Positions 24,013 to 50,683 of a stretch of DNA of 64,000 nt are shown in pieces. The stretch's first letter is position 1; each line of letters starts with the position of its first letter. The notes under the pieces are model-generated. The model saw only the letters and a list, made by a program, of their open reading frames with translations. It was not told the DNA's origin and searched no databases. Source of the stretch: Demequina aestuarii (GTDB lineage Bacteria > Actinomycetota > Actinomycetes > Actinomycetales > Demequinaceae); NCBI RefSeq assembly GCF_000975095.1, contig NZ_BBRD01000001.1:1817467-1881466 (forward strand), in the 5' to 3' direction. The position numbers and the translations under genes were made by a program.

Positions 24013-24016
<4 letters not shown>
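23519..24016 (-). CDS. Hydrogenase maturation endopeptidase (HyaD/HybD/HycI family)
   Basis: 165 residues. GVGSPDRGDDAVG carries the first metal ligand (Asp), a VVIVVDAVASG strand supplies the second Asp, and THTFGLAGAVALARAL supplies the third, His. These residues read nickel in the active site and then cut the C-terminal peptide of the large subunit. It starts with ATG overlapping the large-subunit stop by 4 bases, the natural place for a dedicated protease. Any longer open reading upstream runs antisense or out of frame through the large subunit. Confidence 0.92.
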
Positions 24017-25316
<1,300 letters not shown>

Positions 25317-25320
<4 letters not shown>

Positions 25321-26255
25321 CGTGCGCCTCCCGCCTCGACCGCGTTGCCGGCCGCCTCGAACTCCGGTGCGCCCGCGTTGAAGGTGCGGTACACGCGCAC
25401 GATGTCCGCATCGGCCATCCCCAGCTCGACGAGCTGCGTGGTGAGCGAGGCCGTATTCGTCGTGTCCTGCGGGCCGAAGCAGCCGTAGCAGCCGCGCCCG
25501 TACGTGGGGCACAGCGCCCCGCATCCGGCCTGCGTGACCGGGCCCAGACACGGCGTGCCGTTGGCGATGGGGACGCAGATGTTGCCCTTGCGCTTGCACT
25601 CCACGCACACCGAGTAGCTGGGAATGCGAGGCTTGCGGCCGTTCAGGTACGCCGCGAGCACCTCGATGAGCTGGCGCTTGTCCACGGGGCAGCCACGCAG
25701 TTCGTAGTCGACGTCGACGTGGCTCGCGATGGGCGTCGAGGTGTCGAGCGTGGAGAGGTACTCGGGGTGCGCGTAGACGATCGAACGGAACTCGTCCACG
25801 TCCGCCCAGTTGCGCAGCGCCTGGATGCCGCCGGCGGTGGCGCACGCGCCGATCGTCACCAGCGTCCCGGACTGCGCGCGGATCTCGTGGATGCGGCGCA
25901 TGTCCTCGGGAGTGGTGATCGACCCCTCCACGAGCGAGAGGTCGTACGGCCCTTCGACCACGGCACGGGTCGCCTCGGGGAAGTACGCGATGTGGACGGC
26001 GCCCGCGATCGACAGCAGCTCGTCCTCGCAGTTGAGCAGGCTCAGCTGGCAGCCGTCGCAGCTGGCGAACTTCCAGACGGCGAGCTTGGGGCGTGCGGCC
26101 GATGCGGGGGCGGGCTCGGGCGCGGCAGCCTCCGCGAGTGCGGGCCCAGGCACGGCGGCTGGTTCAAGCCCAGAGGCCGGCTCAATTGCAGCGGCCTGCT
26201 CCATCCCAGAGGCTGTCTGAGCTGCGGGTCCGTGGTGGTGCGCGTGGTCTGTCAT
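25317..26255 (-). CDS. hyhS: [NiFe] hydrogenase small (delta) subunit, group 3b-like
   Basis: 312 residues. Cys ligands for the FeS relay are seen in [12 protein letters not shown] (Cys66, Cys69), [47 protein letters not shown]-like and [11 protein letters not shown] segments. There is no Tat signal, as expected for a cytoplasmic group 3 enzyme. Unusual: before the family core (from about residue 57) stands an extension with a His cluster (HAHHHG at residues 4-9) followed by an Ala/Pro/Glu-rich stretch. The His cluster might bind nickel. Confidence 0.94.
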
Positions 26256-26270
26256 GTCGCCGCTCTCCTC

Positions 26271-27146
26271 TCACAGTTCCCGCACGTCCATGAGCGGCTC
26301 GAGCCGCGCGTAGTCCAGCACGGGACCGTCGACGCACACGAACAGTTCGCGCAGCTGGCAATGCCCGCACAGGCCGATGCCGCACTTCATGGACCGCTCC
26401 ATCGACAGCCGCACGCGGGCGGGGCTGACGCCGCGGCTCACGAGGGCCGATGCTGCGGCCCGCATCATCCCCTCGGGCCCGCACACGAACGCGAAGGCGC
26501 GGCGGGGGTCGAAGCCGGCGCGGCCGATCAGCTCGGTCACGAACCCCACGCGGCCCTTGTATCCGTGCGGGGCGTTGTCGACGGTCATCTGCACGTTGAC
26601 GCCGTCGAGGTCCGCCCACCGGCGCATCTGCGCGCCGTAGAGGATGTCGTCGGGCGTGCGCGAGCCGTACAGCAGCAGCACCTTGCCGTAGCTGTCCCGC
26701 TCGGCGAGCACGTCGAGGATCGCGGGTCGCAGCGGCGCCAGCCCGATGCCGCCGGTGACGAAGACGACGTCGTGGCCGCGCGCATCGGCCGCATCCCACG
26801 AGGTGCCGAAGGGGCCGCGCACGCCGATCTCGGTGCCGGGAGCGGCGTTCACCAGGGCGCGCGTGACGGCGCCCACGTTGCGGATGGTGTGCTCGAGCGG
26901 CGCGGGGTGCCGGGGGTCGCCGGCGATCGAGATGGGCACCTCCCCCACACCGAACGCGTGCAGCATGGTGAACTGCCCGGCCCGGAAGGTCATCTCCTCG
27001 CCGCCGTCCACGGGATCGAGCAGCAGCGTGAAGGTGTCACGGGTGTCCTGGCGCACGCGGGTGATCGCGAAGCGGCGCGGGATCATCGGGTCGGCGCGAC
27101 CCGTGCGTGCCACCGCATCGGCGATGGTGCCCACGCCTGCCATCAT
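26271..27146 (-). CDS. hyhG: Hydrogenase gamma subunit, FAD/NAD(P)-binding
   Basis: 291 residues, ferredoxin-reductase-like. The flavin domain has FRAGQFTMLHAFG and PISIAGDPRHP; the nucleotide domain has VVFVTGGIGLAPLRPAILD and AFVCGPEGMM; the C-terminus carries a [2Fe-2S] site, CGIGLCGHCQLRELFVC. It passes electrons between NAD(P)H and the FeS chain. ATG at 27146 is preceded by AGGAGAGGAG. It lies 15 bases before the small-subunit gene. Confidence 0.93.
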   Translation of the reverse strand: MMAGVGTIADAVARTGRADPMIPRRFAITRVRQDTRDTFTLLLDPVDGGEEMTFRAGQFTMLHAFGVGEVPISIAGDPRHPAPLEHTIRNVGAVTRALVNAAPGTEIGVRGPFGTSWDAADARGHDVVFVTGGIGLAPLRPAILDVLAERDSYGKVLLLYGSRTPDDILYGAQMRRWADLDGVNVQMTVDNAPHGYKGRVGFVTELIGRAGFDPRRAFAFVCGPEGMMRAAASALVSRGVSPARVRLSMERSMKCGIGLCGHCQLRELFVCVDGPVLDYARLEPLMDVREL

Positions 27147-27179
27147 GGCTCCTCTCCTGCGCTCCGCGGGCGCGTTGCG

Positions 27180-28469
27180 CTAACTCGTCACTGTCACGTG
27201 GTCCCCGGTCGGCACGTGGTCCCCGGTGGGAAGGACGCCGCCGGCGCGCATGCGTCCCAGCGCCGCAGCCTCCTCGGTGATGTCGATGCCCGCCGGGCAC
27301 CAGGCGATGCAACGGCCGCAGCCCACGCACCCGAGCATCCCGAACTGGTCCTCCCACGAGGACAGCTTGTGGGTGATCCACTGGCGGTAGCGGGCCTTCA
27401 CGGACTCGCGGGTGGGGCCGCCATGGATGTAGGTGAAGTCCTCCGAGAAGCACGAGTCCCACACGCGGTGGCGCTCGGCGGTCGCGCCAGTGAGGTCGGA
27501 GACGTCCTCGACGGTGGTGCAGAAGCACGTGGGGCACACCAGCGTGCAGTTGGTGCAGGACAGGCAGCGTGAGGCGACGTCCTCCCAGCGCGAGGATTCG
27601 GCCGATGCGCGCAGGTCGTCGCGCACGGTCGCGGCGGTGATGCGGCGCGTCTGCTGCGAGGCGGCGTGGGCCGTGACCGCCAGTGCCTCGTGCTGGTCGT
27701 CGAACTCCGCGGGCGCCGTGTCGATCGCGTGGGCGACGTCCCGGCCGGCCTCGGTGCCGATCTCGAGGACGAAGTGGTGCCGGTCGGGGTCGCTGGGGGC
27801 GATCTCGGTGAGCAGCAGGTCGTACGAAGGCTCGCCGGTGGCCGGGTCGGTGGCGGCGGGGCGTGGGCCGGTCCCCATCGAGGCACAGAAGCAGGTGGCC
27901 GCGGGATCCGAGCAGGCGACCGCGACCACGAAGGTGGCCTCGCGGCGGGTCACGTAGTGGGCGTCGATGTACGTGCGGCCGGCGAGCACCTTGTCGTGGA
28001 TCTGGACGGCGCGCAGGTCGCACGAGCGGACGCCCAGCAGCGCGATCGGGGGGGCGTCCAGCTGGTCGCGTTCGACGGTGAAGCCGGGGTCGTGCGGGCT
28101 GGAGGCCGGGGCGGTGGTCGGGTTGCCGGCGTTGTCGGGGGTGGACGCGCTGGCAGCGCTGTCGGGGGTGACCGCGGTGTCGCGGCGACCGCGCCAGATC
28201 ACCTCTTCCGCCGGGAAGAACACGGGCTTCGACGACTGGGCGGGGGCGGCGAAGCCGAAGTAGGCGCCATCATCGCGCTTGCGCAGACGGTAGCGGGCCG
28301 GGTCCTGCTCGTCGCCCACTCCCTGCGGCAGGTCGGAGGCCGAGCGGATCTCGCCGGTGACGATCGCATCGTCCCGGAGCGTGGGGCCCATCACCCGGTA
28401 GCCGCGGCTTCGCAGCTGCGCGATGAGGCCCTCGAGTCCCGTCGCCGGGAGCAGTCGGATGTCGTCCAT
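27180..28469 (-). CDS. hyhB: Hydrogenase beta subunit, 4Fe-4S dicluster
   Basis: 429 residues, first gene of the operon. Two ferredoxin-type motifs, [16 protein letters not shown] at about 301-316 and [14 protein letters not shown] at about 378-391, hold the clusters. An earlier [14 protein letters not shown] and a [11 protein letters not shown] segment are typical of HydB/HyhB-like proteins. A low-complexity Ala/Ser/Thr-rich insert lies near residues 100-120. The gene starts ATG with GGAGG nearby and a DosR-like box about 47-60 bases upstream, so oxygen limitation may induce the whole operon. Confidence 0.93.
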
Positions 28470-34788: not shown

Positions 34789-35847
34789 CTAGTCGCGCTT
34801 GAACCTGTCCGCGACCGCACCAGCGGCCTTGACTCCGGCGCCCTTCGCAGCCTTGGCCGCGCTCACCGCCGCTCCACCCACGGTCGCGCCCACCGAAGCA
34901 CCCGCCGACTTCACCGCCGTCAGTGCCTGCGGCTCGCGGTGCACCCCATCGACCTCGGTGCCGCGGAACGCGGCCGTCCCGTCGACCACGCGCGTCCACA
35001 CGCTCTCGCCGAAGTCCTTCGCGGAACCCGACGCCGCGCGCATGGCGACGACCGCGCGCGAGCCGGCGAGCGCATCGGCCGTATCGCCGTCGCTGGGCTC
35101 GAGCCACGCGGGCCACGTCTCTGCCGGCTCGGAGAAGCCCTCGCGGCACGCCTTCACCACGCTCGAGCCGAAGTAGTAGCTGGTCACTCCCCCGGCGACC
35201 GCGCCGATGACCGGGATGGCCTTGGTGCCGATCTTCACGCTGCCGAACACCGCGGCCTGCGTGCCCATCTGCTTCGCGAGGGCGATCGTGACCGGCACCA
35301 ACGCGGAATCGGGCAGCTGGGTCGCCAGCAGGTCGCCCCACTTGGGGTTGACCTTGGACACCGTGGCGCCGGCGGTGCGGCGCGCGGTGCCCACCGTCGC
35401 GCCGGCGGGCAGCGCGCTGAGGACGACTTCGGTGATGCGGCTCTTGCGCTTCTCCCCCAGGAGCGCGCCGAGCACCACGGCCTTGGCGCGCTCGGGGTCG
35501 TCGATGGGGATGCCGCGCAGCTCGGCCATGCACAGGGCGAACAACGCAGTGGTCTCGTAGAAGAACAGCAGATCCGCGACGCCGAGGCCGATCGCGACCG
35601 GCACGCCCACCACCGGGATGCCTGCGGTGGCGCCCGCTGCCGCGCTCGCCGAGGTGGTGGTCGCGACGTACTGGGACTCGATGGTCTTCATGACCTCGGC
35701 AGGGGTCGCATCGGGCTTCCGACGCCGGATCTCCTTGATGTACGCCGTCGCCGCGGGGCGCTGGACCGCGATCGCCTTGAACACGCGATCCTGGAAATCG
35801 TCGGGAAGGGCGAGGGTGGTGGGCGTCGTGGAGGAGTCCTGGGTCAT
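34789..35847 (-). CDS. EcsC-like protein
   Basis: 352 residues. The central part resembles EcsC: GVPVAIGLGVADLLFFYETT, ALCMAELRGIPIDDPERAKA, and a Gly-rich GTKAIPVIGAVAGGVTSYYF segment. It has amphipathic or short hydrophobic stretches but no clear signal peptide. The last about 45 residues are Ala/Gly/Lys-rich (AAKAAKGAGVKAAGAVADRF), like a membrane-associating tail. EcsC family members are linked to ABC exporters, but the function is not known. ATG at 35847 preferred over a farther upstream in-frame ATG. Confidence 0.75.
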   Translation of the reverse strand: MTQDSSTTPTTLALPDDFQDRVFKAIAVQRPAATAYIKEIRRRKPDATPAEVMKTIESQYVATTTSASAAAGATAGIPVVGVPVAIGLGVADLLFFYETTALFALCMAELRGIPIDDPERAKAVVLGALLGEKRKSRITEVVLSALPAGATVGTARRTAGATVSKVNPKWGDLLATQLPDSALVPVTIALAKQMGTQAAVFGSVKIGTKAIPVIGAVAGGVTSYYFGSSVVKACREGFSEPAETWPAWLEPSDGDTADALAGSRAVVAMRAASGSAKDFGESVWTRVVDGTAAFRGTEVDGVHREPQALTAVKSAGASVGATVGGAAVSAAKAAKGAGVKAAGAVADRFKRD

Positions 35848-35893
35848 AGGGGACACGGTAGCTGGCGGTTCGGACACCCAGCGCCGATGCGCG

Positions 35894-38533
35894 TCACCGC
35901 TCGGCGGCGTCCTCGACCAGCCAGTCGCCACGGGCTCGGGTGCCATCCTGCCCGCGCGTCGAGTAGCGCCGACGCCACACGCCCAGCCGAGCCATCACGA
36001 AGCGGTAGGCGAGCCACGCTGCGATCCCCACCGCGATGCCCGCCAGGGCGCCGGCAACCGGGGGTTCGACCCGGAAGATCACCTGCCAGTGGACCAGGTA
36101 GATGAACAGCGAGGCGCCCGCGAGCGCCCATACCGCCCCCACGAGCGGCCGCGGCACCGGGACCCACGGCACCCACAGCAGCACCAGCAGCCCAAGACAA
36201 CCGACGAGGTCCCACATATCGAGAGCGGCGAACACCGGGGTCGCCGCCACTGCGATGGCCGAGACCAGCAGCCGTCCGCGCCACGTGGGAGCACGAGCGC
36301 CGGCCCAGCCCAGCATCACGAACCAGGCCGCGGTCGCCAGGGTGTACCGATCGAGCTCGTTGACCGCCACGTCGGTCAGCAGGTAGCGCGTGACCCCCGC
36401 GAGGGCGAGCAGGACCAGCGCGAAGCCGAAGGGCGTGCGTCTCTCCCGCCGATCGATCGCGGGCACGGCGAAGAGTGCCGCCAGCGCCAGCATCGTCCAC
36501 ACCGCGACCTCGATGAACCACAGCTCCCACTGATAGGTCCACATGGCATCGCGAGGAAGGAAGGAGTTCACCAGCAGCACCGTCGTCGGCTGGTAGTGGC
36601 CGCTCACCACCGCGACGAAGCCCGACCACAGCACGGCGGGAATCGCGATCTGAACGGCGACGCCGAGGAGCCTCCTGCTCCGCTTCACCCCTGGCAGATT
36701 GACGATCTGGAAACGCGCAAGGTTGTAGCCCAGCACAGCGAGGAGGACGGCGGACCCGCCCGCGAACCTCAGCACCTCCACGTGCAAGAACACGATCTGG
36801 ACAATCGCGGCCGCGCGCAGCGCGATGGACGTCTCCACCCGGGAGATGGACCCCGCCCACGCGCGAAGGCGCCCGGTGAGTGATGGCGAGGCGGCGGGCT
36901 CGGCGCCCCGCGAACCGGTCTCGGATGGGGCGCCCTCACTGTCGTGCCGCGCGTAGAGCTCGCGAGGGCTCAACGCATGCCAGTCGGTGGGCAATCGCCC
37001 CACCATGGTCTCGAGCCGGATCGAGACCTCGACGTAGCTGAGCGAGTCGCCGCCGAGGGCCGCGAAGGAATCGTCCAGGGTGGCGCCCGGCCGGCCCAGC
37101 AGCTCGGCGTAGAGGTCGCGGATCGAGTCGCCCAGTGAAGCGGCGCTGGCCGGAGCATCGGGAGATTGCCGATGCGCCTGCGCGTGACGCACCAGCGCCG
37201 CCGTGTCCGACTTGCCGCTCTCGGTGCGCGGGAACTCGTCGATAGCGAAGGAGTCGATCGCGTGGATGGGCACGCCGATCGCTGCCGCCGCCCTCCCCCG
37301 GGCCACCGCGACCAGCCCCGGTGACCGCACGAACAGCAGCAGCCGCTCGTCCGCCGATGCCGTCCGCGCGTCGATGCCGGCCTCCGCGAGCAACTGTTCG
37401 ACGGCGTCGAGATCGATCCGCAGTCCGTAGACCTTCACGAACCGGTTGGCGCGCCCCACGATCTCGAAGAGTCCGTCCTCGCGCTGGCGGGCCAGGTCGC
37501 CGGTGCGCAACTCGGTGATCACGCGGCCGGTGGCGAAGTCGGCGGGGTGCTCCGCGTAGCCCATCATCACATTGGGACCGGAGTACACGAGCTCGCCCGA
37601 GTCTTCGCCGGCCGCGACGTCCACGCGCAGCGACCCGCCGGGGATCGCGCGGCCGATGCTGCCGGCGGCGGCTTCGGCCAGGTCGGGCGGGAGGTAGGCC
37701 ATGCGCGCCGTCGCCTCGGTCTGCCCGTACATCACGACGAGCTCGAAGCCGCGCTCGCGGCCCAAGCGGGCGTAGCGCCGGACCATGTCCGGGGCGAGAC
37801 GCCCGCCGGCCTGGGTGATGTAGCGCAGGCTCGGGAGGTCGCGCTCAGCAAATCCTGACGCGTCGAGCAGCTCGAACGTGTAGGGAACGCCAGCGAACGA
37901 CGTTGCGCCCGTCAGCGTGAACTCGTCCCAGAACCGTTCGTCCGAGACGCTGTGCTCGGTGAGTACCACGCTCGCTCCCGCCAGCAGGTAGCTGTTCAGC
38001 ACCGAGAGCCCGTAGCAGTACTGCAGGGGCAGCGTGGTGGCGGCCCGGTCGCGCGGAGTGATCCGCAGGTACTCGCCGATGGCCGCCGCGTTGCTGCGCA
38101 GGTTCTCGAACGACAGGCGCACGAGCTTGGGCGACCCCGTGGAGCCAGAGGTGCTCGCGAGCATGGCCAGGTCGGGGTGGAGGTCGTGGCGCGAGCCAGC
38201 ACGGCGCTCCTGCAGCCGCCATCCCTCGCTCGCACCGGCGGCGACCACGTCCGGATCGAACCGCTCGATGAGCGCCTCGCGGTGGGCGGCGCCGGCGGAT
38301 CCGTCATCGGGGACGAAGAGCACAGGGTGGCCCGCCTCCAGGGCGGCGAGATACGTCACGACCGGCTCGATCGCGTTCCCGGCGGTGATCACCACCAGTC
38401 GACGCTCGGCCCCCAGGTGGGTGCGGCGCTCGTCCACGAGGCCGCGCAGCTCGCCGTACGTGACGGTGCGGCCGGAGGCAATCAGGGCCGGATCTTCGGT
38501 GCTTCCTCCCACGAGGCAGAGTCCCGGAAGCAT
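35894..38533 (-). CDS. Fusion: adenylation domain - carrier protein - membrane acyltransferase
   Basis: 879 residues in three parts. Residues 1-450: AMP-forming acyl/aminoacyl adenylation domain with the P-loop LASTSGSTGSPKLV (about 125), VMYGQTEATARM (about 270), TGDLARQREDGLFEI and the hinge GRANRFVKVYGLRID, and the catalytic Lys in PRTESGKSD. Residues 465-530: carrier domain with the phosphopantetheine Ser in ALGGDSLSYVEV. From about 555: an OafA-like acyltransferase-3 membrane domain with about ten helices, beginning near ALRAAAIVQIVFLHVEVLRF with its conserved His. The protein could activate an acid, load it on its own carrier and transfer it across or at the membrane to an envelope acceptor. 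Confidence 0.85.
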   Translation of the reverse strand: MLPGLCLVGGSTEDPALIASGRTVTYGELRGLVDERRTHLGAERRLVVITAGNAIEPVVTYLAALEAGHPVLFVPDDGSAGAAHREALIERFDPDVVAAGASEGWRLQERRAGSRHDLHPDLAMLASTSGSTGSPKLVRLSFENLRSNAAAIGEYLRITPRDRAATTLPLQYCYGLSVLNSYLLAGASVVLTEHSVSDERFWDEFTLTGATSFAGVPYTFELLDASGFAERDLPSLRYITQAGGRLAPDMVRRYARLGRERGFELVVMYGQTEATARMAYLPPDLAEAAAGSIGRAIPGGSLRVDVAAGEDSGELVYSGPNVMMGYAEHPADFATGRVITELRTGDLARQREDGLFEIVGRANRFVKVYGLRIDLDAVEQLLAEAGIDARTASADERLLLFVRSPGLVAVARGRAAAAIGVPIHAIDSFAIDEFPRTESGKSDTAALVRHAQAHRQSPDAPASAASLGDSIRDLYAELLGRPGATLDDSFAALGGDSLSYVEVSIRLETMVGRLPTDWHALSPRELYARHDSEGAPSETGSRGAEPAASPSLTGRLRAWAGSISRVETSIALRAAAIVQIVFLHVEVLRFAGGSAVLLAVLGYNLARFQIVNLPGVKRSRRLLGVAVQIAIPAVLWSGFVAVVSGHYQPTTVLLVNSFLPRDAMWTYQWELWFIEVAVWTMLALAALFAVPAIDRRERRTPFGFALVLLALAGVTRYLLTDVAVNELDRYTLATAAWFVMLGWAGARAPTWRGRLLVSAIAVAATPVFAALDMWDLVGCLGLLVLLWVPWVPVPRPLVGAVWALAGASLFIYLVHWQVIFRVEPPVAGALAGIAVGIAAWLAYRFVMARLGVWRRRYSTRGQDGTRARGDWLVEDAAER

Positions 38534-38668
38534 CTGATCCCCCTCACCGGATCACCATGCTCACTCGGCACAGGGAGCATGTCGCGACTCTACTGGCGCG
38601 CCTGCCCGATGCGCCAGGGTCCGGGCTTTGCCCGTGGTGCTGGCATGGGGTGGGCTTGGGCTGTCACG

Positions 38669-38683
38669 CGGCCGATGCGCGGG
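38669..38683 (+). repeat. Intergenic copy of the 15-base motif CGGCCGATGCGCGGG
   Basis: Exact copy of the 15-mer found at 32395 and 63785. It lies immediately before the pentanucleotide repeat and the end of the gene at 38705. Confidence 0.8.
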
Positions 38684-38716
38684 TTCAGTCCAGTTCGGTT
38701 CAGTTCAGTTCAGTTC
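38684..38716 (+). repeat. Pentanucleotide (TTCAG) microsatellite
   Basis: TTCAG is repeated three times in a row (38699-38713) plus degenerate flanking copies. The array overlaps the stop codon of the minus-strand gene at 38705, so slippage would change that protein's C-terminus. Confidence 0.8.
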
Positions 38717-39187
38717 GCCGAACGGGTACCGCACGGTAGCGAAGGGCCAGGAGTTCTCGAGCCAGGCCGGGACGAAGGCGCGCACTGCGGCGGCGAGGCC
38801 TTCGGGTGCGTCCGGGACGACCCACCACGAGACGTCGGCGGCGGGCTGTTCGACGCTGGAGCCAGGTTCGAGCTCAGCGGGGTCGATGTAGATGCAGCCG
38901 AACAGCCGGCTCTCGTCGCTGGGCAGGATCGCGTAGTTGAACGAGTGGTTCTCGGCCATGTCCTCGGCGTGGAGTTGGAGATCCTCGCGGTCCTCCTCGG
39001 CCGTCATGGTGGCGGGCGGCCAGCCCCAGGTGTCGCCGTACTTGTCCCACAGCATCGCTTGGTTGCCCATGACGGCGGGCATGTCGATGTCGAGATCGTC
39101 GGGGCTGATGGGGCGGATGTGGACGTCGTCGGTGATGTCGACGCGAAGGGGGTGTTGGAAGTCCAGAGGAAGCCAAAGTGATGTCAT
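38705..39187 (-). CDS. Hypothetical protein, possibly GNAT-like; intact copy of a duplicated gene
   Basis: 160 residues. Visible: VHIRPISPDDLDIDMPAVMG near the start, AMLWDKYGDTWGWPP, a FNYAILPSDESRLFGCIYID strand (reminiscent of the GNAT 'G-x-x-x-I' core), then an SWWVVPDAPEG segment. It resembles small acetyltransferase-like proteins, but the acetyl-CoA loop is not clear. A second, broken copy lies at 43370-43736 on the same strand, about 80% identical over 80 residues by eye. Its 3' end runs into a microsatellite. Confidence 0.7.
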   Translation of the reverse strand: MTSLWLPLDFQHPLRVDITDDVHIRPISPDDLDIDMPAVMGNQAMLWDKYGDTWGWPPATMTAEEDREDLQLHAEDMAENHSFNYAILPSDESRLFGCIYIDPAELEPGSSVEQPAADVSWWVVPDAPEGLAAAVRAFVPAWLENSWPFATVRYPFGELN

Positions 39188-43276: not shown

Positions 43277-43369
43277 GAGTCCGCCGCCGAGGACGCCAAC
43301 GCCGACGACAACTTGGTAGCAACACCTCCGTACGAGCCACGACGCCTGCGGGCGCGTGCGTCACAACCC

Positions 43370-43736
43370 TCACGAGACGTCGGCGGCTGGCTGCTCCACG
43401 GTTGAGCCGTGCTCAAGCTCGGCGGGGTCGAAGTAGAGGCAGCCGAACAGCCGGCTCTCGTCGCTGGGCAGGATAGCGGAGTTGAACAAGAGGTTCTTGG
43501 CCATGTCCTGGGCGTGGAGCACCGGGTCCTCGCGGTCCTCCTCGGCCGTCAAAGCGGCGGGCGGCCAGCCCCGGGCATCGCCGTACTTGGCCCACAGCAT
43601 CGCCTGATTGCCCATGACGGTGGGCGTGTCGATGTCAAGGCCGTCGGGGATTATGGGGCGGATGTGGACGCTGGCGGTGATGGCGACCCGGAGGGAGGTG
43701 GGTGAAGTCGGTGGGGAGCCAATGTGGCGTTGTCAC
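43370..43736 (-). pseudogene. Broken partial copy of the gene at 38705
   Basis: The middle matches residues about 40-118 of the intact protein (VMGNQAMLWAKYGDARGWPP, AILPSDESRLFGCLYFDPAE). The N-terminal codons VTTPHWLPTDF are present but in another frame, so a small indel separates them. Beyond QPAADVS the sequence is unrelated, so the C-terminal third is missing. It is therefore frameshifted and truncated. Confidence 0.82.
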
Positions 43737-45840: not shown

Positions 45841-46464
45841 GTGTCTTTGGTGAGGTCGAAACAACGCGTCGCTGAACACGGAGAGGTGTTCACCCCGGAC
45901 TGGCTTGTGGAATCCATGCTCGATCAAGTCAAGGGCGAGTCGGAGCGCATCGATTCCCGCTTCCTTGAGCCGGCGTGCGGTTCCGGCAATTTCCTCGTGA
46001 GGGTACTCGCCCGCAAACTCGACGCAGCGGAGCGACGCTACGCCGGAAGCGAGTTTGAACGCCGCAACTACTCGCTGCTCGGCGTCATGTGCATCTACGG
46101 CATCGAGTTGCTCCCTGACAACGTGGAGGAGTGTCGTCAGAACATGCTTGAGGTGTTCGACGTGTTCTTGGGTCTGACAGCGAACAACGATCTACACAAG
46201 GCAGCCGAGTACGTGCTCAGTCAGAACGTCGTCCACGGGGACGCCCTTACGATGCTGAATCATGACGGCACGCCCATCACGTTCGCGGAGTGGGGCTACT
46301 TGGGCAAGGGTCGTTTCCAGCGGCGGGATTTCCGTTTCGACACTCTCTCGCACATGAGTGCCTTCAGAGCCGAAGACACGTTGTTTGCCGATAGCGGCAA
46401 GCATGAGGTGTTCAAGCCGACGAAGAACTACACGCCCATGAGCGTGGCGGAGTTAGCAGCGTGA
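45841..46464 (+). CDS. N6-adenine DNA methyltransferase, SAM-binding half
   Basis: 207 residues. HGEVFTPDWLVESML and the SAM motif I, FLEPACGSGNFLVRVL (about 41-56), are clear; VHGDALTML is motif III. The protein ends without a catalytic (N/D)PPY motif, which is instead present in the next gene. The two are joined by a 4-base overlap (GTGA). I recognise this as the small partner of a conserved three-gene restriction-modification cassette. It would methylate host DNA together with the next subunit; target sequence unknown. Confidence 0.85.
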   Translation: MSLVRSKQRVAEHGEVFTPDWLVESMLDQVKGESERIDSRFLEPACGSGNFLVRVLARKLDAAERRYAGSEFERRNYSLLGVMCIYGIELLPDNVEECRQNMLEVFDVFLGLTANNDLHKAAEYVLSQNVVHGDALTMLNHDGTPITFAEWGYLGKGRFQRRDFRFDTLSHMSAFRAEDTLFADSGKHEVFKPTKNYTPMSVAELAA

Positions 46465-48112
46465 CCACGCAGCAAGCGACTTTTTCCATTCGTGGGCGCA
46501 ACCCCGACGTCCTGACCTGTATCGCAAATTTGTCCAACGATGAGGTGTTTACGTCACCCGAGCTCGCTAACCGCATGCTCGACAAAATGGCTGCGGCCTG
46601 GGCCGATTCCAATGACGACGAGGACATTTGGTCCAACCCTGACATAACATTCCTCGACCCGTTCACGAAATCAGGGGTTTTCCTGAGAGAGATCACGAGT
46701 CGCCTGACTAAGGGACTTGAGGAGCATATTCCCGACCTCGAAGAGCGAGTGGATCACATCCTCACCAAGCAGGTCTTTGGCATGGCTATCACCGAACTTA
46801 CGGCGATGCTCGCTCGGCGAAGCCTCTACTGCTCGAAGTGGGCCAACGGTCCCCACTCAATCGCCAAGTCAATTGACGACGAGCATGGCAACATCTGGTT
46901 CGACCGTACCGAGCACACATGGATCGGCGGCACCGAGTGGGTCACCACTGCCGATGCCGAGGGCGACCGCGTCGGAAAATTCACCAACGGCAAGTGCAAG
47001 TACTGCGGTGCAAGCCAGAAGGCGTTGAATCGAGGCGAAGAGTTTGAAAGCCACGCCTACGCTCTCATCCACACCGAAGACCCCAAAGCTCTGCTAGCAG
47101 AGCTGTTCGGAGAAGACATGAAGTTCGACGTCATAATAGGCAATCCGCCGTATCAGCTCGACACGGATGGCCACGGCAATCAGGCACGACCGATCTATCA
47201 ATTGTTTGTGGAGCAGGCCAAGAAGTTGGAACCAAAACTTCTTGTGATGATCACACCCGCTCGCTGGTTCTCCGGTGGCATGGGCTTGGGTGCCTTCAGG
47301 AAAGCTATGCTGGCCGACCGCAATATTCGCACTATCGTCGACTTTCCGAAGCTCTACGACGCGTTTCCTGGCGTTAAGATCCGCGGTGGAGTTGCCTACT
47401 TCGTTAGAGATAGCAGCCATTCAGGACCGTGCACGATCCAGACGATGTGGGACGACGAGCCCCTCGGTCCGCCGTCAGTTCGTTACCTCGACGCATACGA
47501 CATCTTGGTTCGACGGAACGAAGCCATTCCGATTCTGGAGAAGGTGCGAGCAAAGGCGGAACCCACCATCGACGGCCGCGTCTCCAGTCAGAAGCCGTTC
47601 GGCTTGGCGACCAACTTCAAGGGCAAGACTTCAGAAGTGGGCCTTCGTTCGCCGGTGAAACTCTACGCGAACCAAAGCACCGTGTTCGTAGAGCGGACTG
47701 ACATCCCGACCAACGTCGAATGGGTGGACGAGTGGAAGGTGCTCATGACGAGAATCCAGGGCACGAGCGCATCCGTCGAGACCAAGTTTCTGAGTAAGCC
47801 CCTTGTGACGCCCCCTGGAACGGCCTGCACCGAGACTTACCTCGTCGCAGGTCACTTTGCCACCGAGGATGCAGCTATTCGCCTCGCTACTTATCTCCGC
47901 ACTCGCTTTGTACGCTTCCTCGTATCTCTGCGGAAGCCAACACAGGACGCATTGAAAGGTGTCTACAGCTTCGTGCCAGTCATCCCACTTGATCGCGAGT
48001 GGACGGACGCACAACTGTACGAGCGTTACGGGTTGACCGAGGAGGAAGTGAAGTTCATCGAGTCGCTTGTCGCTCCTCACGACGATGAAGCCACTTGGAA
48101 GACGACAGTGTG

Positions 48113-48113
<1 letters not shown>
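46461..48113 (+). CDS. Eco57I-like DNA methyltransferase/specificity subunit
   Basis: 550 residues. A SAM-site remnant, ITFLDPFTKSGVFLREI (about 61-77), departs from the usual GxGxF. A zinc-knuckle-like KCKYCGASQ follows near 176, then the catalytic motif IV FDVIIGNPPYQL at about 220-231. TPARWFSGGMGL and a long C-terminal region probably form the target-recognition domain. GTG start overlapping the previous stop; its own stop shares a base with the next ATG. Base composition is more AT-rich than the flanks, consistent with transfer. Confidence 0.88.

Positions 48114-50683
<2,570 letters not shown>

Follow-up and report, generated by a model that had tools for sequence, protein, structure and literature searches.

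A family of fused adenylation, carrier and acyltransferase-3 proteins linked to ferric importers in actinomycetes

The 64,000-nucleotide stretch of Demequina aestuarii DNA analysed here (the window) contains, at 35894..38533 on the minus strand, a single open reading frame (ORF) with an ATG start that encodes 879 residues. In this protein an adenylation (A) domain, a carrier (T) domain and an acyltransferase-3 (AT3) membrane domain follow one another, and proteins of this architecture are called A-T-AT3 below. The family is linked to iron acquisition by the position of its genes beside ferric importers and by predicted iron-box promoters in relatives of the window gene (boxes of the DtxR/IdeR type), an aspect missed by the initial annotation of this DNA. 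The explanation favoured here, to which we give slightly less than an even chance, is that the family makes a secreted or surface-bound acyl conjugate that would capture Fe3+ for an importer of the Sfu/Fbp type. The AT3 protein, the ferric importer and the A-T module are all familiar on their own; the fusion with its iron link is apparently new: a search of open-licence PubMed Central (PMC) papers found no description of either the architecture or the link. In databases the fusion is labelled 'AMP-binding protein'.

Homologues were taken from a genome scan that gave 348 relatives, of which the best 80 (L005-L084) were used, a set that is biased to close relatives. Residue counts refer to 81 sequences, or to 76 for AT3 columns, where five loci cut at contig ends (L028, L050, L057, L075, L082) were left out. 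The best 80 come from Microbacteriaceae, Nocardioides, Nocardia, mycobacteria, Parafrankia, Thermoleophilia, Acidimicrobiales and one alphaproteobacterial metagenome-assembled genome (MAG), and nearly all lie within Actinomycetota. Relatives are also borne on plasmids (Rhodococcus, mycobacteria, Rhizobium, Leisingera and others). A sample of the class comprised 296 genomes in 115 genera, and the family was found at E <= 1e-90 in 46 of these genomes and 20 of these genera; in 10 of the 46 the match did not extend beyond the A-T part, because the AT3 sequence has diverged too far to be covered by a single local alignment. Within the genus of the window a full-length copy was present in 2 of 44 genomes, the remaining matches being general AMP-binding enzymes. 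The fusion is one continuous ORF at all 80 loci, including the five cut ones, and the copy in a sister genome (G015) is 89% identical to the window protein in amino acids. Since the ORF is single throughout and the ratio of nonsynonymous to synonymous substitution rates (dN/dS) between the window and sister copies is 0.22, a chance ORF and a frameshift artefact were both excluded; the frameshift between domains that the initial annotation had allowed for is not there.

Importer genes were sought within each fetched stretch using the annotated Rhodococcus opacus importer as query. Neighbour clustering gave one recurring set, the genes of a ferric importer (binding protein, double permease, ATPase). 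All three genes were found at 37 of the 80 loci, some of them at 7 and none within the fetched stretch at 36; 30 of the complete importers lie on the strand of the A-T-AT3 gene and 7 on the opposite strand. At the importer-less loci the recurring neighbours (selected neighbours, classified by Pfam and NCBIfam) were PAC2, macro domain, alpha/beta hydrolase, DUF4386, metal P-type ATPase and MFS proteins, with no common theme. An iron importer adjoins the gene in 7 of 16 annotated named records examined, namely R. opacus B4, R. fascians D188, R. gordoniae, M. chubuense NBB4, M. crocinum, M. rufum and the alphaproteobacterium Pararhizobium sp. A13.

The linkage was counted in one genus, probably Mycobacterium, in which 77 of 198 genomes carry an A-T-AT3 gene. 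By genome, 62 have both this gene and an SfuA-type binding-protein gene, 15 have A-T-AT3 only, 3 the binding protein only and 118 neither (Fisher p 6e-33, a value that assumes independent genomes, which kinship violates). By locus, a binding-protein gene lies within 7 kb of 61 of 83 A-T-AT3 loci, 15 of the 83 being matches over the A-T part or less, and A-T-AT3 stands at 61 of 69 binding-protein loci, 20 weaker rows (37-40% identity) having been left out. Strand and order were the same in 61 of 61 cases. This fixed-order operon, together with the recurrence of the pairing in an alphaproteobacterium, suggests that the product of the enzyme is used by the importer.

By sequence the binding proteins resemble SfuA/FbpA (455 bits to PDB 1xvy) or FutA. 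The Tyr-Tyr pair of SfuA/FbpA-type proteins, which we take to be their iron-binding residues, was kept in 43 of 43 aligned binding proteins (40 from the loci and 3 from plasmid records). At three loci (L070, L073, L076) the importer has a FutA-like binding protein (NHYY-type) that is about 30% identical to the SfuA-like one, so that the partners of A-T-AT3 include ferric binding proteins of two classes. An importer of the class that adjoins the gene in relatives, msmeg_3633-3636, has been studied in M. smegmatis: in a strain without both siderophores the SfuB-like ferric permease msmeg_3635 was needed for growth at low iron, and the authors termed the uptake that depends on it siderophore-independent (PMC6684656; this and the other papers cited by PMC number are cited for the excerpts available). 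Three importer genes were analysed in that work and a legend speaks of an msmeg_3630-3636 operon; the available excerpts mention no A-T-AT3 gene.

Iron boxes were predicted with a 19-bp DtxR/IdeR consensus, to which the known sites in the available part of PMC524172 correspond in shape. Scanning the 80 loci and the window stretch gave 41 sites at up to 4 mismatches and 67 at up to 5, whereas three shuffled versions, in which base composition alone was preserved, together yielded 1 match at up to 4 mismatches and 13 with exactly 5. At 36 of the 80 loci a predicted box with up to 4 mismatches lay no more than 350 bp upstream, either of the gene (26) or of the importer (14), and up to 5 mismatches brought this to 51 of 80; elsewhere in the 1,318,334 bp of loci no site at up to 4 mismatches was found. 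A second sample of 29 loci, which may overlap in species with the 80, had predicted boxes within 300 bp upstream at 20 loci (up to 5 mismatches) or 7 (up to 4), with a single further site at up to 5 mismatches elsewhere in 158,571 bp. Predicted boxes were also present at loci lacking an importer, among them six of seven Cryobacterium loci and an Arthrobacter plasmid.

The domain composition given in the initial annotation, acid activation followed by a carrier and an AT3 acyltransferase, was confirmed by the single ORF and by three Pfam matches: AMP-binding (148 bits), PP-binding (26.4 bits, cut-off 20.8) and Acyl_transf_3 (PF01757; 27.1 bits, under the curated cut-off of 31). Among 57 members scanned, matches at E <= 0.001 numbered 57, 53 and 53, respectively. 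Also as annotated, Pfam reported no condensation domain in the protein and no biosynthetic cluster was seen among the 20 neighbouring ORFs scanned in the window. Of the two marks of a nonribosomal peptide synthetase (NRPS) that were considered, a condensation domain and the amino-acid-binding Asp, the window protein has neither.

The A domain (37169..38533, minus strand; about residues 1-455) carries, near its C-terminus, the catalytic lysine K441, kept in 81 of 81 sequences, and the T domain (36938..37144, minus strand; about residues 464-532) carries the phosphopantetheine serine S497 in the motif GGDSLS, kept in 79 of 81 with a gap in the other two. Alignment to domain 1 of linear gramicidin synthetase placed C173 at the amino-group-binding Asp and R277 within the pocket; alignment to domain 2 was shifted by two places, and there is no Asp in Y-C-Y-G-L-S either way. 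C173 is present in 79 of 81 sequences (Ser in 2), and R277 in all 81 and in stand-alone A proteins of glycan-type clusters as well. Because the NRPS Asp site reads Cys-Tyr-Gly (C173-Y174-G175), the domain probably acts on a carboxylic acid that has no alpha-amino group, and the amino acid that the initial annotation had offered as one option was not borne out by the binding pocket. As a guess, R277 would suit a second acidic group on the substrate.

A phosphopantetheinyl transferase (PPTase), which the initial annotation had proposed to look for, was represented by one match in the window genome, a 119-aa AcpS-like ORF. Across 12 genomes that carry the gene there was one PPTase match in six, at least two in five and none in one, so AcpS may load the T domain.

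The AT3 domain (35954..36853, minus strand; about residues 561-860) contains R573 and H584 in its first membrane helix, and the pair R/K573-x10-H584 was found in 76 of 76 uncut sequences. OafA loses its function on the equivalent substitutions R14A and H25A, and its Arg faces the cytoplasm (PMC7448272). The A and T domains precede the helix that bears this Arg, and should therefore lie in the cytoplasm. An AlphaFold model of the AT3 part alone had a mean predicted local distance difference test score (pLDDT) of 92.3 and a predicted template modelling score (pTM) of 0.89. The whole chain gave a mean pLDDT of 87.7 and a pTM of 0.60, so that the relative placing of the A, T and AT3 domains is not fixed by the model. 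VIA-align matched the AT3 model to HGSNAT (Z 13.7, root-mean-square deviation 4.5, 251 aligned) and GWT1 (Z 9.9), the next unrelated row being at 5.6; Foldseek alone also placed HGSNAT first, yet with E 0.14 at a probability of 0.98. As modelled, the AT3 part resembles the ten-helix TmAT fold. Loss of an RxxR motif was considered as a mark of a carrier replacing coenzyme A (CoA), and gave no clear answer: some RxxR at the stretch of the third helix is present in 59 of 76 sequences, the window protein included, at no fixed column.

The family thus has in common with the known AT3/TmAT proteins OafA, OatA, HGSNAT and GWT1 the R/K-x10-H pair in the first helix, the ten-helix fold and the Pfam match (53 of 57), and differs from them in that its AT3 is fused behind A and T domains. 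The available parts of a review (PMC9558356) and of papers on AT3 name fusions with SGNH, racemase and NRF partners and give acyl-CoA as the donor; a built-in carrier is not named in them. In the Aquisalinus MAG (L084:6925-7935) a stand-alone AT3 gene (109 bits) lies immediately before the A-T-AT3 gene, with a slight overlap between them; the two are perhaps a pair of transferases for one loaded carrier.

Under the favoured explanation, an iron-starved cell would make the A-T-AT3 protein together with the ferric importer. The cytoplasmic A domain would form an acyl-AMP from a carboxylic acid that, judged by the pocket, is probably not an alpha-amino acid, and the conserved Lys and Ser suggest that the acyl group would then be loaded onto the phosphopantetheine arm of the T domain. 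The arm, taking over the usual role of acyl-CoA, would bring the group to the pore of the AT3 domain from its cytoplasmic side. By analogy with other AT3 proteins, the AT3 domain would move it to an acceptor hydroxyl, probably at the outer face of the membrane, and the product would act as a ligand that brings Fe3+ to the importer. The self-contained machine for activation, tethering and transfer that the initial annotation had proposed is supported by K441 (81/81), S497 (79/81), the R/K573-H584 pair (76/76) and the TmAT-like AT3 part; its comparison with the amino-acid logic of the Dlt system did not survive, there being no Asp in the pocket and an AT3 rather than an MBOAT domain in the membrane.

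Several results weigh against this explanation. No importer gene lies within the fetched stretch at the 36 loci mentioned above, 9 of the 16 named records have no adjacent iron importer, and most importer loci of the mycobacterial type have no clear box near the A-T-AT3 gene. The review cited above favours acyl-CoA, not a carrier, as the AT3 donor (PMC9558356). A pocket without Asp does not by itself name a substrate, and loading of the T domain of the window protein is uncertain, the only PPTase match in the window genome being the 119-aa AcpS-like ORF. The window copy and its sister have neither an adjoining importer nor an iron box. The intergenic stretch upstream of the window gene (38534..38704, minus strand) is without a DtxR/IdeR-like box, unlike that of many relatives, its best match having 8 mismatches; the best match in the window has 7 and lies far from the gene. 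No box at up to 3 mismatches was found anywhere in the window genome, and iron control therefore cannot be shown for the window organism, which may use another iron regulator or box. Its genome has one match to the binding protein (C6:74324, 35% identical).

The main rival is surface acylation in an iron-stress response, in which a surface glycan or lipid would be O-acylated during iron starvation with an effect on charge, permeability or biofilm, the iron link being regulatory and not a matter of chelation. AT3 proteins do mostly acylate extracytoplasmic sugars (PMC9558356), and AimS of Acinetobacter baumannii provides a case of an AT3 protein tied to iron limitation: it is induced by Fe or Zn limitation, supports growth at low metal and acts, according to the authors, independently of cell metal content (PMC13345540, preprint). 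AimS differs from the family in being, again according to its authors, a stand-alone protein. In a Parabacteroides polysaccharide cluster and in Rhizobium anhuiense, the A domain has relatives whose genes neighbour those of a separate carrier and a separate acyltransferase. These stand-alone A proteins are 38% and 35% identical to the window protein, respectively, and have the same R277 and YGLS core; their systems differ from the family in using separate genes and hexapeptide/LpxA-like transferases. Remodelling of the envelope is harder to reconcile with the fixed-order operon with one class of ferric importer (61/61), with its recurrence in an alphaproteobacterium and with the finding of no recurrent glycan gene among the most frequent neighbour clusters, and we consider it rather unlikely.

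A second alternative concerns the window copy, which may have left the job of the family after losing the importer, the box and the usual AT3 residues, and would then acylate something else or be decaying. The window protein departs from the others at 6 of 171 columns conserved in at least 90% of sequences, five of them in AT3 (A594S, H595A, G767V, R774W, P820F), and the sister copy has the same five; residues 592-595 read GGSA in place of the GGAH of 74 of 76 sequences. In our own matching, by spacing to the SG glycine, position 595 would correspond to D39 of OafA, and D39A abolishes function in that protein (PMC7448272). The restriction of full-length copies to 2 of 44 genomes of the genus points the same way. 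Against this, departures range from 0 to 23 per sequence among the 81, so that six are unremarkable, and the suggestion that H595A kills the AT3 domain was softened by the six proteobacterial orthologues: none has His at 595 and three read GGSA, including the Pararhizobium one beside a ferric importer. Between the window and sister copies dN/dS was 0.145 for A, 0.32 for T and 0.267 for AT3 (0.22 for the whole gene), and the window copy is under purifying selection. From these ratios and the GGSA of the proteobacterial orthologues, the window copy is probably functional, a diverged member whose role in iron uptake is unproven; that it has abandoned the function of the family we regard as unlikely.

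Aminoacylation of a teichoic acid or similar polymer in the manner of Dlt, with which the family shares activation, a carrier and transfer through the membrane in the step order of DltA, DltC and DltB (DltA being at rank 37 among structural matches of the full model), was rejected as very improbable indeed, since the family is one chain, lacks Asp at the amino-group site (79 of 81 have C173 and 2 have Ser), has AT3 where DltB has MBOAT and is linked to iron importers. Poly-lysine and poly-ornithine synthetases such as PosA also have an A-T part followed by a membrane region; the family differs from them in having AT3 and no amino-acid pocket.

In the window the downstream neighbour (34789..35850, minus strand) is a conserved ORF (about 353 aa) that matches no Pfam family, and the upstream neighbour (38705..39187, minus strand) encodes 160 aa with a weak GNAT-like match (24.1 bits, cut-off 25.4); both are syntenic in the sister genome. 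A degenerate second copy of the GNAT-like gene, with 83% DNA identity and stops in the aligned frame, lies at 43340-43726, and the two copies bracket about 4 kb. GC content falls to 57-62% at 45841-50680 (2-kb windows, 46 to 50 kb), compared with 70% around the A-T-AT3 gene, and the ORFs of this segment, an N6 methylase, an Eco57I-type methylase and a helicase, match models of type II/IIG restriction-modification. A nickel-dependent hydrogenase-like ORF and a 4Fe-4S dicluster ORF are found at 24013-28469 on the minus strand. Among other loci, a glutaredoxin or MauE/DoxX-like gene and a MerR-type regulator lie close to the A-T-AT3 gene in three proteobacterial ones (L110, L147, L162), and in Rhizobium bangladeshense (L111:11711-16612) the gene is followed by an operon of AAA ATPase, YcaO and TfuA.

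In its widest form, which we put forward tentatively, the proposal is that A-T-AT3 proteins make, each as a single enzyme, Fe3+ ligands of a hitherto unrecognised class, acyl esters that are secreted or anchored at the surface and that feed Sfu/Fbp-type importers in actinomycetes and some alphaproteobacteria. If this is true, uptake called 'siderophore-independent' through such importers would rest on a hidden chelator, with a bearing on how the Sfu/Fbp-type importers of Gram-positive bacteria obtain soluble Fe3+ without a known siderophore. AT3 enzymes would also be shown to accept an acyl group from a carrier fused to them rather than from CoA, and a gene labelled 'AMP-binding protein' would be the marker of a route for iron uptake in many soil and environmental actinomycetes.

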